A stretch of DNA of 64,000 nucleotides from Oceanicaulis sp. HLUCCA04 (GTDB lineage: Bacteria > Pseudomonadota > Alphaproteobacteria > Caulobacterales > Maricaulaceae). Of the stretch, positions 16,268 through 50,708 are shown piece by piece (position 1 is the stretch's first letter; the number at the start of each line of letters is the position of its first letter). The stretch is taken from positions 1 to 64,000 of the forward strand of contig LJSH01000001.1 in the NCBI GenBank assembly GCA_001314625.1, given 5' to 3'. Position numbers and translations under genes: made by a program. A model generated the notes under the pieces. The model made no database searches. It was not told the origin of the DNA and was given only the letters and a program-made list of their open reading frames with translations.

Positions 16268-17469
16268 GCCGCCGCGTGGCCATTATCGGCGCCGGGCCTG
16301 CCGGCCTGATCGCCGCTGAAAACCTCAGCAGCGAAGGCTTCGCCGTCGATATTTATGAGCGCATGCCCAGCGTGGGGCGCAAATTCCTGATGGCGGGCAG
16401 GGGCGGATTGAACCTGACGCATTCTGAAGCCCTGGAGGCGTTTCTGACCCGCTATGGCGAGGCCCAAGGCTGGCTGGAGCCGTCCATCCGAGCCTTGGCC
16501 CCTGCAGATCTGATCGCGTGGTGTGAAAGGCTGGGGCAGGAGGTTTTCACCGGTTCCAGCGGTCGGGTGTTTCCAGCGGCGATGAAAGCCTCGCCCCTGC
16601 TGCGCGCCTGGCTGGCCCGGCTGGACGGGCTTGGCGTGACCATCCACACGCGTCATGAATGGCGCGGCTTTGACGATGCCGCGCGTGTCCTGATAGCAGG
16701 ACCGGACGGTGTTGTGCGGGCCGTGGAGGCCGATGCCGTCGTGCTGGCGCTGGGCGGGGCAAGCTGGCCGCGTCTGGGCTCGACAGGGGAATGGACAGGC
16801 TGGCTGGAAGCGCGCGGGGTGCAGATTACGTCCTTTGCTCCCGCCAATGCCGGCTTCAATGCGAACTGGTCAGAAATATTTCGCGGGCGCTTCGCCGGGC
16901 AGCCGCTCAAACCGGCGCGCTTCACCCATGCGGGCCGTACGATACGCGGCGAGGCGATGATCACCGCTTATGGCATCGAAGGCGGTGCCATCTATGCCCT
17001 GAGCGCCTCGTTGCGCGATGCCATTGCGCGCGAGGGCCGGGCTGTCCTTACTGTCGATCTGGCGCCGGGCCTGACGCAAGCGGATCTCTCGGCGCGCCTT
17101 GCGTCTGCAAAGCCTGGCCAGTCGCTCTCCAACACGCTGCGCAAGAGTGCGCGCCTGTCACCGCTCGCCATCTCCCTGCTGCGCGAGGCAGGCGAATTGC
17201 CCCGTGATCCGGCAGAGCTCGCCGCGCGCATCAAGGCGTGTGCGTTGACCCTCACCGGCATGCAGGGGCTGGAGCGCGCCATCTCCAGCGCGGGCGGTGT
17301 GGCGCGCGAGGCGGTCGATGAGCGCTTCATGCTCAAAGCCCTGCCCGGCGTGTTTGTGGCAGGCGAAATGCTCGACTGGGAAGCGCCCACGGGCGGCTAT
17401 CTGTTGCAGGCTTGCTTTGCCACCGGCGTGGCGGCGGCGAGGGGCGTGGCAGGGTGGCTGGCGCGCTGA
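16264..17469 (+). CDS. TIGR03862 family flavoprotein
   Basis: A 401-residue FAD protein. The N-terminus has VAIIGAGPAGLIAAENL and then SVGRKFLMAGRGGLNLTHSE, typical of the BaiN/HI0933-like flavoproteins. The C-terminus has GVFVAGEMLDWEAPTGGYLL, the signature of TIGR03862. The physiological substrate is unknown. It is the last gene in the run dusA-tauE-crotonase-flavoprotein and is followed by a palindromic element, then a convergent SDR gene. Confidence 0.88.
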   Translation: MSRRVAIIGAGPAGLIAAENLSSEGFAVDIYERMPSVGRKFLMAGRGGLNLTHSEALEAFLTRYGEAQGWLEPSIRALAPADLIAWCERLGQEVFTGSSGRVFPAAMKASPLLRAWLARLDGLGVTIHTRHEWRGFDDAARVLIAGPDGVVRAVEADAVVLALGGASWPRLGSTGEWTGWLEARGVQITSFAPANAGFNANWSEIFRGRFAGQPLKPARFTHAGRTIRGEAMITAYGIEGGAIYALSASLRDAIAREGRAVLTVDLAPGLTQADLSARLASAKPGQSLSNTLRKSARLSPLAISLLREAGELPRDPAELAARIKACALTLTGMQGLERAISSAGGVAREAVDERFMLKALPGVFVAGEMLDWEAPTGGYLLQACFATGVAAARGVAGWLAR

Positions 17470-17488: not shown

Positions 17489-17585
17489 CTGAAACCCCGG
17501 AAGCGCGCAGCGCTGTCCGGGGCCTGTTGCCCGGCTATCCTGCACGAAGGTCCCGGCTCAGCGCTTCGCTTGGCCGGGAGTTCAG
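17489..17585 (+). repeat. Dispersed palindromic element, family A, copy 1
   Basis: A 97-bp element starting CTGAA and ending TTCAG, with two stem-loops: CCCCGGA (17495-17501) with TCCGGGG (17516-17522), and TCCCGGC (17551-17557) with GCCGGGA (17573-17579). The same layout recurs at 25154-25241, 44982-45086 and 50622-50708. This copy lies between convergent stop codons and could also end transcription, though no T run follows. Confidence 0.8.
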
Positions 17586-21130: not shown

Positions 21131-21260
21131 CGGGGTTTCTCCCCCCGTTCACGGGGGGAGGGCCGCGAAGCGGCGAGGGGGGGATTCTGGGCAAAAACGT
21201 CCCCCCTCCGCTTCGCTAGGGCTCAGCACCTCCTCCGCAAGCGGGGGAGGAAATCTGGCA
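21131..21260. repeat. Composite of GC-rich palindromes, including family B
   Basis: This gene-free stretch holds several stem-loops: CTCCCCCCGT-TC-ACGGGGGGAG at 21139-21160 (perfect ten-base arms), a CGAAGCG-rich hairpin region at 21160-21215, and CCTCCTCCGC-AA-GCGGGGGAGG at 21229-21250. The last lies 22 bases after the acyl-CoA dehydrogenase stop codon and may end its transcript. The first type is shared with a palindrome inside the coding sequence at 32105-32132. From 20976 to 21271 I see no gene. Confidence 0.7.
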
Positions 21261-24594: not shown

Positions 24595-25140
24595 ATGATC
24601 CGTGCATCCATTGCTGCTCTTGCTCTTGCCCTGACGGCCACGTCTTCCCTTTCCGCGCAGGAATGGGTGATCGACAGCGAAGCGTCTGAAGTCATTGCTG
24701 AAACCCGGTCCTTCGGGCAGGCGGTGACAGCGGAATTCTCTGAATATTCTGCCGAGATCAGTTTTGACCCCGACGATCTGGAGAACGCCTCGATTTCGGC
24801 GCGCGTCTCCACGGGCTCCGGCACGGTTGCCAACCGGGAATACCAGTCTGCGCTGGTCAGCCGGGACGGGCTGAACCCTGATGAGCACGCCGAAGCGGTG
24901 TTTGTCTCCGACGAGGTGGTAGCCACCGGCGAGGGCTATGAGGCCCGCGGCACGCTGACCATCAAGGGCGAAAGCCGCGACGCCGTGCTGCCCTTCACGG
25001 TCGAGATCAGCGATGGCCGCGCGGTGGCGCAAGGCAGCCTAGAGATCGTGCGCGCGGACTTTGGCGTCGGCAGTTCCAGCTGGGCCGAAGTCGCGCCGTC
25101 CGTCACCGTGCGCCTGCATATCGAGGCGGATGCGGGGTAG
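24595..25140 (+). CDS. YceI family periplasmic protein
   Basis: A 181-residue protein with a cleavable signal peptide (ASIAALALALTATSSLSAQ, cut before about residue 21), so it is soluble in the periplasm, unlike the lipoprotein copy two genes upstream. The barrel runs EWVIDSEASEVIAETRSFGQ to SVTVRLHIEAD and includes AVFVSDEVVATGEGYEARGT. It is third in the yceI-cytb561-yceI operon. Possible roles are binding of quinone or an isoprenoid lipid. It is followed by a family A palindromic element. Confidence 0.9.
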   Translation: MIRASIAALALALTATSSLSAQEWVIDSEASEVIAETRSFGQAVTAEFSEYSAEISFDPDDLENASISARVSTGSGTVANREYQSALVSRDGLNPDEHAEAVFVSDEVVATGEGYEARGTLTIKGESRDAVLPFTVEISDGRAVAQGSLEIVRADFGVGSSSWAEVAPSVTVRLHIEADAG

Positions 25141-25153
25141 ACAGTCCAGCCCT

Positions 25154-25241
25154 TTGAAATCCCGGCCGCGCATAGTGCGAGCCGGGACCGGATGCAGACC
25201 TGGCGAGAGAGGCCCCGGATCGCTGCGCGTCCGGGGTTTCA
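25154..25241 (-). repeat. Dispersed palindromic element, family A, copy 2
   Basis: An 88-bp copy in reverse orientation relative to copy 1: TTGAA at the left end, stem-loop CCCGGC...GCCGGG, spacer with TGCAGACC, then GCCCCGGA...TCCGGGGT-like stem (GGCCCCGGA with TCCGGGGTT) and TTTCA at the right end. It lies between the convergent stop codons of yceI and dciA. Confidence 0.78.
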
Positions 25242-25272
25242 TTATGGTAAACTGAACTACGGCAATCTCCAG

Positions 25273-31813: not shown

Positions 31814-32423
31814 GCCGCGTCTCGTCGTCTTTGTCCGCGCGCCGGTAATCGGCGGCGCCAAGACGCGCCTGGCCGCCGGGATCGGCAAGGTGATGGCGTG
31901 GCGCGCCTACCGGGCAATGACGGCAAAGACGCTTCGCCGCGTGCGCGATGATACGCGTTGGCTCAGCGTGCTGGCGGTCAGTCCCGACAACGCCGTTACC
32001 CGCGATTTCGGCCCTGCCTGGCCCGGTGATCTGCAGCGCTGGCCACAAGGGCAGGGCGATCTGGGGACAAGGCAGGCGAGGGCATTTGAAGGCGTGAAAC
32101 ATCTTTTCTCCTCCCGTGAACGGGGGGAGAAAAAGGGACGGCGGTGGCCCGTCACCGTCATTGGCAGTGATGCGCCTGACATTACCAGACGAGACGTGGC
32201 CCAAGCCTTCACCCTGCTCAAACGCCATGACGCCGTGATCGGCCCGGCAAAAGATGGCGGCTACTGGCTGCTGGCGCTGAAACGTCCAGCGCCGCGCGGG
32301 CTTTTCGATGGGATACGCTGGTCAAGTGCGCAGACGCGTAGCGATCTTGAGGTCCGCCTGCGTGGGCATGGGCTTTCGCGTATCGCTTACTTGCGCGAGC
32401 TGGCCGATGTGGATGAGGTTTAG
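31803..32423 (+). CDS. TIGR04282 family glycosyltransferase (arsenosugar-type), with palindrome-coded insert
   Basis: A 206-residue nucleotidyl/glycosyltransferase-fold protein of the TIGR04282 (cofC-like) group: LVVFVRAPVIGGAKTRLA at the N-terminus, VTVIGSDAPDITRRDVAQAF, and GPAKDGGYWLLALKRP. TIGR04282 and TIGR04283 proteins are known to occur as neighbours. The start is probably TTG 31803, since the conserved N-terminus begins five codons later; it overlaps the hydrolase gene by 11 bases. Between ARAFEGVK and WPVTVIGSD there is an extra segment of about 12 residues (HLFSSRERGEKKGRR) encoded by a 28-base palindrome, so it looks inserted. Confidence 0.83.
   Translation: MPARPRLVVFVRAPVIGGAKTRLAAGIGKVMAWRAYRAMTAKTLRRVRDDTRWLSVLAVSPDNAVTRDFGPAWPGDLQRWPQGQGDLGTRQARAFEGVKHLFSSRERGEKKGRRWPVTVIGSDAPDITRRDVAQAFTLLKRHDAVIGPAKDGGYWLLALKRPAPRGLFDGIRWSSAQTRSDLEVRLRGHGLSRIAYLRELADVDEV
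32105..32132. repeat. Family B palindrome inside a coding sequence
   Basis: A 28-base palindrome with thirteen-base arms, TTTCTCCTCCCGT-GA-ACGGGGGGAGAAA, one pair being G-T. It is nearly the same as the intergenic palindrome at 21136-21160. Here it is read in frame within the TIGR04282 gene, around codons 101-110. Confidence 0.78.
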
Positions 32424-44697: not shown

Positions 44698-47082
44698 CTA
44701 GCCTTCCAGCCGGTCAAAGTCAGCTACGGCCCGTACCGCTTCGCGGATGCGCGACAATAGAACAAGTCTGTTGCGCCGCAACACGCGGTCGTCTGCGTTG
44801 ACTGTCACACGCTCAAAGAACGCATCCACCGGCCCGCGAAGGCTCGCCAGAGCCCGCATCGCGCTTTCAAAGTTTTCCGCGTCCAGCGCGGCCTGCGCAT
44901 CCTGGCTCGCGTTTTTCAGCGCGGCGATGAGGCCGGCTTCTTCCGGCTCGGTCGCGGCTGTGGCGAGGGCCTTCAACAGATCTGAACTCCCGGACGCGCC
45001 GGAGGCGCGAGCCGGGACCTGTTGCCCGTCGGAATCAAGGCCCCGGCTCTCCCCCGGATCATGACCAGGGCCGGCCGGGGTTTCAGGGGAGGGGGCGGAG
45101 GGGGGAGCGGACGAAGGATCAAGCTCTGTCAGAGCCGCCGCCACGTCAAAGCCCTTGCCTTCCTCGGCTTTCAATATGTTCGCCGCGCGCCGGTATCCGG
45201 CCAGCAGCGCCGCGCCATCCTCTGTGTTGAGGAAAGCCTGCAGCGCGCGCGATTTTGCGGTCACACGCACCAGATCATCATCACCCAGAGCAAACACGGC
45301 ATCGATCACGTCGTGGCGGATGCCCTCATCGCGGAGGTGGACCTTGAGGCGGTCTGCGAAGAAGGCGAGGAGGTCCTCATGCAGAGCTTCTAATGCTATC
45401 AGATTCTCCGGCGCCTGCTTGGCGCGCTCAAGTTGGGCGTCGATGTCTCGAATAACTTGGGACTTTGGACTATCTGTACCGGACGCTAGGGCTTCAATAA
45501 ACCCCATTTTATATGGTGCTGTTCTGTCATTGCGAAGTCGTCGAAAATAATCATTTAGAACATGCTCAGTTGTGGCGTAGAAAGTCAACTGCAAATTGAC
45601 CCGAATATTGTTTTTTAGCATAATAATAAGTGCTGAAATTGCCGCCCGCCTGACTGCAAAAGGGTCTTTGCTGCCAGTGGGTCGCTGGTTCGCCATAAAC
45701 ATTACAACAATATTATCGAGCTTGTCGGCGAGCGCGACGGCCGCGCTGACCGGGGCGGTGGGCACCGCGTCTGACGGCCCTTGCGGCTTGTAGTGATCGC
45801 GGATGGCATCGGCGATTTCCGCCGGTTCCCCGGCGGCGAGCGCATAATAGCGCCCCATCACGCCCTGAAGCTCGGGGAATTCATAGACCATCTGGCTGAC
45901 GAGATCGGCCTTGGCGAGCTTGGCCGCACGGTAGGCCAGTTCCGGGTCTGCGCCGACGGCAGGGGCGAGTTCGCGCGCGAGCGCGGCCACCCGCTCCACC
46001 TTGTCGGCCAGCGTGCCGAGCTTTTCGTGGAAGGTGACCTTGTTCAGTTCTCCTGCCATCGCCTCTAGCCCGCGCTTGCGGTCGAGATCCCAGAAATGGC
46101 GGGCATCGGACAGGCGCGCGGAGACGACGCGGCCCGCGCCGTGGGCAATTGCCTTGCCGCCATCTGTGGCGTCCTGATTGGCTATCTTGACGAATTTCGA
46201 GGCGATGGCGCCGGTCTTCGGGTCACGCACCGCGAAGTATTTCTGGTGCACCTTCATGGTCAGCGCGATGACTTCGGCCGGCAGGTCGAGGAAGGCCGGG
46301 TCGATCTCGCCCAGCACCGCGACCGGCCATTCGGCGAGGCCCGTCACCTCGGCCAGCAGGCCTTCATCCTCGATCAGTTCCAGCCCGGCATCCGCGCAGA
46401 CACGCTTTGCGCCTTCAAGGATGATCTTCGTGCGTTCGGCGCGGGTGAGGATGACACCGTTGTCGCGCAGCTTGCTCGCGTAATCGGCATAGTCCTTGAC
46501 CGCGAAAACGCGGTCGCCTTTCGAATGGATGCGGTGACCCTCGGTGAGGTTTGCCGCCTCGATACCGAAAACGCTCACCGGCACGGTCTTGCCATCGAGC
46601 AGGCAGATAATGCGGTGAAGCGGCCGCACCCAGCGCTGGGCCTTTTCGCCCTCGCCAAACTTCATGGATTTGGGCCAGGGGAAATTGCGGATCGTGCTTT
46701 CCAGCGCCTCGGCAATGACCTCGCCCGCATCGCGGCCCGGCTTCTCGATGACGGCAACGTAGAAATCACCCTTCGGCGTTGAGTCCACGCGGCACTGATC
46801 GAGGCTCGAAAGCCCCGCCCCGCGCAGGAAGCCTTCCACCGCCTTGTCGGGAGAGCCAACGCGCGGGCCTTTGCGCTCCTCGCTTATGTCTGCGGTGCGG
46901 GCAGGAACCCCTTCGGCGACCAGGCCGATACGGCGCGGGCCGGAGAAGGTTTCAAGGCTTTCCACGTTCAGGCCAGCCGACTTGAACGCCTCGCCCATCA
47001 GCCGGGCGAGATCATCCTCGGCGCGCGCCTGCATGCGGGCCGGAATTTCCTCGCAGAAAAGTTCGATCAGAAGCTGGGCCAA
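44698..47082 (-). CDS. glyS: Glycine-tRNA ligase, beta subunit (with unusual insertions)
   Basis: A 794-residue beta subunit of the tetrameric glycyl-tRNA synthetase. The start is TTG 47082, giving MAQLLIELFCEEIPARMQAR, the conserved family N-terminus. Later motifs include SMKFGEGEKAQRWVRPLHRI, LPAEVIALTMKVHQKYFAV and ADKLDNIVVMFMANQRPTGS-KDPFAVRRAA, with a C-terminal tRNA-binding DALR-like region. Two oddities: codons read from about 45720 to 45421 are AT-rich (about 45% G+C by hand count against roughly 65% around it), and a 105-base palindromic element (44982-45086) adds about 35 Pro/Gly/Ser/Asp-rich residues before SDLLKALATAA. Both keep the frame open, so the protein is probably functional. 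Confidence 0.95.
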   Translation of the reverse strand: MAQLLIELFCEEIPARMQARAEDDLARLMGEAFKSAGLNVESLETFSGPRRIGLVAEGVPARTADISEERKGPRVGSPDKAVEGFLRGAGLSSLDQCRVDSTPKGDFYVAVIEKPGRDAGEVIAEALESTIRNFPWPKSMKFGEGEKAQRWVRPLHRIICLLDGKTVPVSVFGIEAANLTEGHRIHSKGDRVFAVKDYADYASKLRDNGVILTRAERTKIILEGAKRVCADAGLELIEDEGLLAEVTGLAEWPVAVLGEIDPAFLDLPAEVIALTMKVHQKYFAVRDPKTGAIASKFVKIANQDATDGGKAIAHGAGRVVSARLSDARHFWDLDRKRGLEAMAGELNKVTFHEKLGTLADKVERVAALARELAPAVGADPELAYRAAKLAKADLVSQMVYEFPELQGVMGRYYALAAGEPAEIADAIRDHYKPQGPSDAVPTAPVSAAVALADKLDNIVVMFMANQRPTGSKDPFAVRRAAISALIIMLKNNIRVNLQLTFYATTEHVLNDYFRRLRNDRTAPYKMGFIEALASGTDSPKSQVIRDIDAQLERAKQAPENLIALEALHEDLLAFFADRLKVHLRDEGIRHDVIDAVFALGDDDLVRVTAKSRALQAFLNTEDGAALLAGYRRAANILKAEEGKGFDVAAALTELDPSSAPPSAPSPETPAGPGHDPGESRGLDSDGQQVPARASGASGSSDLLKALATAATEPEEAGLIAALKNASQDAQAALDAENFESAMRALASLRGPVDAFFERVTVNADDRVLRRNRLVLLSRIREAVRAVADFDRLEG
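44982..45086 (-). repeat. Dispersed palindromic element, family A, copy 3, inside glyS
   Basis: An element with the same ends (CTGAA...TTCAG) and the same two stem-loop layout as the three intergenic copies: TCCCGG...GCCGGGA at 44988-45017 and GGCCCCGG...CCGGGGTTTC at 45039-45084. It is exactly 105 bases, or 35 codons, and is read in frame as a low-complexity insert starting ETPAGPGHDPGESRG and ending RASGASGSS. Other copies are 97, 88 and 87 bases. Confidence 0.8.
45421..45720. other. AT-rich patch within glyS
   Basis: My count gives 134 G+C in 300 bases (about 45%), falling to about 38% at 45541-45660, while flanking glyS sequence is near 65% or higher. The patch encodes the stretch from about IVVMFMANQRPTG through AALIIMLKNN-type helices to RDIDAQLERAKQ, and uses codons such as ATA, TTA, AAT and TTT that are otherwise rare here. 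It suggests recombination with a foreign glyS or relaxed codon selection. Confidence 0.7.
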
Positions 47083-47101
47083 GAGAGGTGCGTTCCGGTT
47101 C

Positions 47102-47707
47102 TTACTGGTTGCTGGCCTGCATGCGGGCATAGGCGGGCCGCGCGTGCAGGCGGGTGATGTAGTCGTCAATGCGCGGATTGTCCGGCATCAGCTTGAAATG
47201 TTTGAGCCAGCCGAGCGCGCCGCCGATGAGGATATCGGCCGCCGAGAAGCGCTCGCCCAGAAGGAAAGGGCTGTCTTCCAGCGCGGTTTCGATGAGGCCG
47301 ATCACGGTTTCCCAATCGCCCCAGCCGACCGTGCGCGGATCGACATCGAGGTTTTGCGCCTTGGTGACAATGGCCGGCTCCAGCACGCCGGGGCGGAACA
47401 CGCTCCAGTAAAGATAGTCCGCGCGCAGCCGATCATTGATGGCAGGCGCGAGACCGGCATCGGGAAATTCATCGCACAGATAGAGCGAGATCGCGGCCAT
47501 CTCCGTCAGCATCTTGCCGTGATGGCGGATGGCCGGGACCTTCCCGGCCGGGTTGATTTTCAGAAATTCCGCCTCGCGCGTCTCGCCGCCGAACACATCG
47601 ACCTTACGCAGGTCATAGGGCACGCCCAGTTCCTCCACCAGCCAGACCGTGCCGGTGGAGCGGGTATTGGGGCCATGCCAGACGATGAGGTCTTTCGCGT
47701 CACTCAC
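47102..47707 (-). CDS. Glutathione S-transferase family protein
   Basis: A 201-residue protein with an N-terminal thioredoxin-like domain (about 1-80; NTRSTGTVWLVEELGVPYDL, NPAGKVPAIRHHGKMLTEMA) and an all-helical C-terminal domain. The GKVPAI cis-Pro and (T)EMAAISLYL segments form the glutathione site. GTG is the start. It closely resembles the next gene upstream along its length, for example LLGERFSAADILIGGALGW against LLGDKFSAADVVLGGSLSW, so the two are tandem duplicates. The stop lies 19 bases before the glyS start. Confidence 0.9.
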   Translation of the reverse strand: MSDAKDLIVWHGPNTRSTGTVWLVEELGVPYDLRKVDVFGGETREAEFLKINPAGKVPAIRHHGKMLTEMAAISLYLCDEFPDAGLAPAINDRLRADYLYWSVFRPGVLEPAIVTKAQNLDVDPRTVGWGDWETVIGLIETALEDSPFLLGERFSAADILIGGALGWLKHFKLMPDNPRIDDYITRLHARPAYARMQASNQ

Positions 47708-50621: not shown

Positions 50622-50708
50622 CTGAAACCCCGGACGCGCAAGCGATCCGGGGCCTCGTGCCAGCCCTGCACCAGATCCCGGCTCTCGCAAGCTCGGCCGG
50701 GACTTCAA
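50622..50708 (+). repeat. Dispersed palindromic element, family A, copy 4
   Basis: An 87-bp copy in the same orientation as copy 1, CTGAA at the left and TTCAA at the right. Stem-loops: CCCCGGA...TCCGGGG at 50628-50652, and TCCCGGC...GCCGGGA at about 50676-50702. It lies inside the nad operon, between nadA and nadB, and fills most of that gap. Confidence 0.8.

Follow-up and report, generated by a model that had tools for sequence, protein, structure and literature searches.

The glyS locus and the repeat

In the window analysed here, the whole stretch of 64,000 nucleotides, the minus strand at 44698..47169 carries glyS, encoding the beta subunit of glycyl-tRNA synthetase (PF02092, E 9.4e-178; DALR_1, E 5.4e-6; PDB 7yse, E 5e-100). 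The TTG at 47169 is the candidate start taken from the ORF list, and the search query starts at 47088. The frame spans 829 codons with no stop and runs through a copy of a palindromic repeat at 44982..45086 (plus strand), 105 bp or 35 codons that are read from the minus strand, open throughout and scoring 76.4 bits with the covariance model of the repeat, R1. This copy consists of a first hairpin unit at 44983..45019 (plus strand; TGAACTCCCGG...CCGGGACC) and a second, inverted unit at 45039..45085 (minus strand; TGAAACCCCGG...CCGGGGCC when read on that strand); its higher-scoring orientation is the strand opposite to the one that glyS reads. Two non-genic copies, of 97 bp at 17489..17585 (minus strand) and 89 bp at 25154..25242 (plus strand), are each flanked by the 3′ ends of two convergent ORFs, ending at 17469 and 17598 and at 25140 and 25273, respectively. 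A third, of 87 bp at 50622..50708 (minus strand), lies 9 bp past the end (50612) of a plus-strand ORF that we take to be nadA-like, ahead of a gene-like plus-strand frame. For the three copies outside glyS, the distance to the closest stop codon of a long ORF is 9-13 bp, these being ORFs rather than gene calls.

The repeat, about 86-108 bp long, comprises two hairpins joined head to head as a dimer, with near-symmetric ends of the form (C)TGAA...TTCA(G). The order of elements is TGAA, 2 bases, CCCGG, a variable inner stem, CCGGG and a tail of approximately CCT, after which some 20 linker bases lead to the unit's mirror image, although for some copies folding predicts a single long hairpin instead. 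When 12 copies are aligned, the cores of the outer stems are nearly constant and the inner pairs covary, with 96.8% of the cells paired and 6 of the 18 pairs changed on both sides; these values were reached by 0 or 1 of 500 shuffles and were far lower in slid alignments. The TGAA is present in all 12 copies, partly by construction, given that the copies were chosen by a TGAA pattern with two mismatches allowed. A blastn search with just the glyS copy as query retrieved 7 further places in the genome (E <= 3.5e-4), and R1 recovers the four window copies at E 6e-18 to 6e-21, values that are not independent because the same four are among the sequences from which the model was built. Rfam gave no match in the window at gathering scores. 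The preliminary description had listed four copies of a two-stem-loop element, of 97, 88, 105 and 87 bp, the 105-bp one adding 35 codons to glyS in frame. With the second length corrected to 89 bp, all four are upheld as alike beyond chance by blastn, R1 and covariation, and the stop-free frame of 829 codons confirms the in-frame position.

Distribution of the repeat

The R1 repeat is dispersed across its own genus and some sister genera. In its own genome (G000), the model yields 106 matches at E <= 0.01 with both strands counted; manual merging reduces these to at least 57 places, some neighbouring or partial, 48 of which are full-length (at least 83 bp); the number of places is a lower bound because 150 of the 4960 first-look candidates were scored. 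The per-genome counts in the family and class sets are likewise lower bounds, with 72 and 17 candidates scored, respectively. Within the family sample, R1 matches 31 of the 59 genomes, from 13 of the 19 genera (E <= 0.001), including all 5 sampled members of the genus, our own genome counted. In the class sample, at least 11 of 240 genomes match at 1e-5, again with our own included, the other matching genomes doing so weakly under strict filters. Among the 80 named loci kept for GlyS, from which very near records are possibly absent, the best match, with 58% over its top-scoring segment, comes from a Maricaulis sp. MAG, which points to a family near Maricaulaceae. What had been described as a dispersed palindromic family on the basis of four copies is accordingly a genome-wide one, present in at least 57 places that include in-frame copies in pdhB and pdhC.

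Copies within genes

The own genome has three in-gene copies, in glyS, pdhB and pdhC, all in frame, so that the in-frame occurrence of the element in an essential gene, initially described for glyS, extends to all three. The pdhB and pdhC copies separate the lipoyl domain from the domain that follows it. Among relatives, pdhC carries R1 in G014, G029 and G049, pdhB in G014, and glyS in G013, G052 and, with two copies, G049. Together, these make 11 in-gene copies, all in glyS, pdhB or pdhC, which are also the genes examined. The R1 scan covered 30 GlyS and 30 PdhC loci (58 genomes have a PdhC match; 4 of the 30 PdhC loci carry R1) as well as pdhB in the five genus members and G004, with the later GlyS loci L153-L182 and other genes lying outside it, and was accompanied by a search of 59 genomes with the in-gene peptide profile.

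All 11 in-gene copies comprise whole codons, eight being 93 bp long and the others 105, 108 and 108 bp; the 48 full-length copies of the own genome, the 3 in-gene ones included, distribute 17/14/17 over the three length classes. The encoded peptides resemble one another (ETPA..ESRG....VPDRA.GASGSS), that of G052 being the most diverged, and hence a single frame is used. Of the six frames, four lack stops in 30-38 of the 48 own full-length copies, and the two others in 4-5. Over four species, the pdhC insert shows zero indels and, in each of the 6 pairs, a dN lower than dS (0.043-0.089 vs 0.048-0.214; 31 codons).

Comparison with 65 non-coding copies, 45 from the own genome and 20 from G049 (which has more), indicates closer relationships among some of the in-gene copies. 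The two pdhB copies are 0.77-0.89 alike to the pdhC copies and at best 0.76 to the non-coding ones, and the two copies in glyS of G049 have a likeness of 0.90 to each other and of at most 0.81 to the non-coding ones. Judging from these values, the pdhB and pdhC copies, as well as both glyS copies of G049, look as if they had been copied from one another, so that insertion events were probably fewer than the in-gene copies. The glyS copies of G013 and G052 are no closer to the in-gene copies than to some non-coding ones, and the likeness of the three own in-gene copies is not significantly greater than that of random triples (p 0.12).

Several candidates were set aside. In G013, 52 peptide matches were listed, many in long open frames, and the GlyS copy alone was accepted as in-gene: for 18 further translated matches, codon-position composition and flanks point to antisense or upstream frames. 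The in-gene count leaves out the remaining 33 G013 matches and a few weak long-frame matches elsewhere (e.g., in G049, G041 and G014). In the own genome, 20 frames at 17 of the 57 places are open for at least 40 codons past both copy ends, a criterion that does not extend to copies less than 40 codons from a gene end; judged by composition and similarity rather than by gene prediction, only those of glyS, pdhB and pdhC are gene-like. A weak R1 match at L148:2459-2549 (25.4 bits) extends beyond the end of GlyS and was not counted. Separately, a partial copy in the own genome (C8:133146-133231; L079:1501-1586) seems to supply the basic N-terminal part of the signal peptide of a lipoprotein, LKPRKRAALSGALRLLLLAPALLLAGC, and may thus form the start of that protein; its frame is unlike that of the other in-gene copies.

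The inserted segment of GlyS

GlyS was matched in 57 of the 59 family genomes (all but G022 and G050), and the 53 aligned rows exclude G031 (an 85-codon fragment), a further piece of G053, and the fragments of G020, G033 and G054. Site B, as we call the stretch from AANILK to the C-terminal region, measures 35-41 residues in 39 of the 53 rows and 91 residues in the own GlyS. Neither of the two observations that the preliminary description named as contradicting it was thus made: the inserted segment is not common to all GlyS proteins, and close relatives were not found to keep the 35 residues without element-like DNA. The own insert segment is rich in Pro, Ser and Gly and precedes the DALR domain match at residues 710-785. 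In the AlphaFold2 model of GlyS (mean pLDDT 84.4), pLDDT falls below 50 at residues 664-684 and 686-699, the insert being placed by arithmetic at about 668-702; the blocks flanking it average 80-81 and those farther out 88-92. This low confidence may be partly due to the fact that few of the 32 aligned rows have the insert, and low values also occur at 470-473, 526-530 and 540-542.

The site B copies of G000 (44982-45086) and G049 (L122:2243-2335) share one hairpin and the middle almost identically, whereas the second hairpin has a different inner part, with 12 bp more in G000, which looks like an exchange of one half of the repeat. The middle segment of GlyS past KDPFA-RRAA (window approximately 45440-45700), by eye richer in A+T, differs strongly in length and sequence among the family genomes.

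Linkers shared by unrelated repeat families

A second site of length variation in GlyS, site A, is empty in the own gene, where it consists of 27 bp (45814..45840, minus strand) between the GVMGRYYA and ADAIRDHY codons; we take it to be a loop of the GlyS HD domain. Between fixed anchors, site A measures exactly 32 residues in 36 of the 53 rows and 58-105 residues in 16, from ten genera, with none intermediate; the solved GlyS beta subunit 7yse aligns without gaps there. The one remaining row, the glyS of G011 (L165), is cut at its empty site A by an in-frame TAG that could be an assembly error. On a GlyS tree of 52 rows, built by a quick method with the site A columns removed, the filled/empty label changes at least 12 times, 10 of the changes being forced by starred branches, and the shuffled mean is 14.0. 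The site A insert DNA folds better than same-gene controls (mean z -3.9 vs -1.0; Wilcoxon p 0.006; 16 pairs, with one control stretch and 60 shuffles per insert), the exceptions being G034, G036 and G053, whose inserts fold no better than the control.

The linkers of GlyS and pyruvate dehydrogenase are common to several unrelated repeat families. R1 occupies site A in G049 and G052. A second family, for which the G049 pdhB linker served as the source, matches all 12 genomes searched, with 80 matches in G049 and 34 in the own genome, on both strands; by coordinates, it lies at site A of G007 and at both site B and the pdhB linker of G044, and it also occurs in the site B region of G034, where the gene is split over contigs. 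Palindromes of the CTCCCCCGTTCACGGGGGAG type at 21136-21160, 21201-21256 and 32108-32132 of the window belong to this second family. A third family, defined from site A of G045, has matches in 8 of 10 genomes, including at site A of G023 and G053, and recurs in the pdhB linker of G029 (E 1.5e-4). Within the genus, therefore, G000 and G014 have R1 in the pdhB linker, G049 has the second family there and G029 the third; in that of G041 no repeat was recognised. Altogether, a dispersed-repeat insert was demonstrated for 6 of the 16 long site A sequences, from three families, the rest being repeat-like by peptide or hairpins only. The insert peptides of different families at site A are unlike one another. 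The insert of G017 starts with CGTCATCC and ends with GGATGACG, and that of G016 (L174) contains three tandem copies of a PHPEDGVAVDSK-like peptide, so that an insert may grow by tandem duplication.

Outside the family, 77 of the 80 named loci for alphaproteobacterial GlyS have a site A of 32 residues; the longer ones belong to Brevundimonas halotolerans, Brevundimonas lutea and a Caulobacteraceae MAG, and in all three cases their DNA folds into long hairpins, as assessed without a shuffle control. Site B exceeds 50 residues in 2 of the 80 loci: a Citromicrobium MAG, in which no repeat was recognised there, and Sphingomonas mucosissima, where it contains CGTCATCCCCGCGCAGGCGGGGAT and ends with AATGACG, like a CGTC REP dimer. 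With at least two other families in the same linkers and a CGTC-type repeat at the GlyS linker of Sphingomonas, the initial picture of one peculiar element has to be abandoned.

Relationship to known repeats

Palindromic repeats in working proteins are best known from Rickettsia and have often been taken as a feature of degenerating intracellular genomes. The Rickettsia palindromic elements (RPE) comprise several families and are reported to occur in frame within genes that likely encode functional proteins (PMC3733652, PMC2635572). The parallel with RPE drawn in the preliminary description is borne out, in that R1 occurs in frame in conserved genes and in further non-genic copies of the same genome. 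Unlike RPE, which we compared by description rather than by sequence, R1 resides in an alphaproteobacterium near Maricaulis and has different ends.

Similarities are also apparent with the CGTC REPs, alphaproteobacterial hairpins that form mostly head-to-head dimers and are mostly intergenic near 3′ ends, with which RPE-4 and RPE-6 have been equated; for these repeats, no transposase was reported to be found, and REPs are described inside ORFs, including those of tRNA synthetases (PMC3733652, Di Nocera et al. 2013). The same source describes different REPs at about the same place in recB of X. campestris and X. oryzae (PMC3733652). Like the CGTC REPs, R1 forms head-to-head hairpin dimers, has no dedicated transposase as far as the Y1_Tnp search shows and has some copies in ORFs, including that of a tRNA synthetase; it also resembles REPs in being mostly intergenic near 3′ ends, as examined for the 3 window copies outside glyS. 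By contrast, its end tag is TGAA rather than that of the GTAG or CGTC REPs, its stem core is CCCGG/CCGGG with a variable inner stem, and, unlike in the CGTC case, the linkers of GlyS and pyruvate dehydrogenase are each occupied by unrelated families in several genera. Unlike REPs with a RAYT, R1 resides in a genome without a Y1_Tnp match. Bacterial MITEs are short, non-coding, dispersed elements with inverted-repeat ends. R1 is similarly short and dispersed and has inverted-repeat ends, but differs from MITEs in that no target-site duplication is found and no related transposase was identified. In-protein palindromic repeats are thus of a known kind, represented by RPE and by REPs inside ORFs. 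In the literature searched, with its partial coverage, we found no account of the TGAA-ended family or of the use of GlyS and pyruvate dehydrogenase linkers by multiple families, nor a related account of the peptide SESRGQ or of Maricaulis palindromic repeats.

Origin and maintenance of the in-gene copies

Dispersal and patchy presence suggest that R1 is mobile. A flank consensus or target duplication was ruled out by analysis of the flanks of the 48 full-length copies, 45 of which lack an abutting direct repeat, as against 44 expected from shuffled flanks. The transposase search, which covered the Y1_Tnp family alone, found Y1_Tnp (RAYT) in 12 of the 59 family genomes but not in the own genome, in any of the five genus members, or in G013, G052, G010 and G030, and mobilisation by RAYT was rejected because element-rich genomes are without a Y1_Tnp match. 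At site A, where the surroundings are 93-95% identical, G029 has 27 bp and G049 has 150 bp, of which 93 are the repeat, so that the difference is a local replacement rather than a clean insertion. Furthermore, filled site A alleles of different genera have common residues beside the insert (GGxLxGLS...), suggesting old, exchanged alleles. Hence, of the earlier proposal that a mobile repeat enters coding sequence, the presence of in-frame genic copies stands, whereas transposition finds no support in the target sites, in the Y1/RAYT search or in the local replacement at site A.

Taken together, we consider it probable that these are REP-like, non-autonomous palindromic repeats that persist in tolerant linkers and are copied and exchanged by recombination, the encoded peptide serving as a spacer. 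The process would consist of the rare arrival of a repeat copy followed by recombination between alleles and between linkers, a scenario favoured by the missing target duplication and Y1 match, the replacement between G029 and G049, and the common flanking residues. A copy arriving in a rigid or frame-sensitive place would be lost by selection, whereas one in a surface linker would survive, given that four of the six frames are usually open and that the peptide is disordered. From there, homologous recombination could carry the resident copy into other linkers and swap it between alleles. It would be the linkers that are special, more so than the repeat: they would accept any arriving palindromic repeat, and unrelated families would therefore reach the same sites. 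The insert peptide is most likely a harmless spacer with no further function.

Alternatively, an actively transposing MITE- or REP-like element, mobilised by an enzyme in trans, could enter coding sequence directly, each in-gene copy representing an independent insertion. We regard this scenario as unlikely: it would account for the abundance of copies in some genomes of the family and the failure to find any in others, for the difference in site A occupancy between near relatives and for the sharing of one site by different families, but it is at odds with ends that carry no direct repeats, with the missing Y1_Tnp matches in the five genus members, G013, G052, G010 and G030, and with the near likeness of the pdhB and pdhC copies. 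Somewhat less plausible still is selection on the repeat-encoded peptides for a function, such as solubility, a protein contact or variation of the GlyS surface against an outside attacker, which would lead to the refilling of the linkers. The filling of the same linkers in several genera, the one related peptide in one frame given by the in-gene R1 copies and the retention of the pdhC insert in four species would all fit; however, site A has 32 residues in 36 of the 53 family rows and 77 of the 80 named alphaproteobacterial GlyS, the peptides of different families are dissimilar, and the common frame may stem from gene-to-gene copying. Finally, that an ordinary low-complexity linker, as the Pro/Ser/Gly-rich segment and the 3 poorly folding site A inserts might be taken to imply, resembles the repeat by chance or composition is highly improbable in the face of the 76.4-bit R1 score, the blastn matches to seven dispersed copies, the hairpin covariation and the folding of the 16 site A inserts relative to their controls.

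A broader generalisation can be offered tentatively: the GlyS HD loop, the linker preceding the GlyS anticodon-binding domain and the lipoyl linkers of PdhB and PdhC, all disordered linkers of essential enzymes, might be general landing and exchange sites. Unrelated palindromic families would displace each other there within short evolutionary times, and selfish DNA would in this way rebuild parts of core proteins. In addition, the surface of GlyS may be under pressure to vary, given that the middle segment of the protein is also highly variable. The setting is one of ordinary-sized, Maricaulis-related genomes and highly conserved enzymes, with near relatives that carry filled and empty alleles and several repeat families per site. 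Comparison of such genomes allows direct tests of how repeat-derived protein segments are born and turned over.
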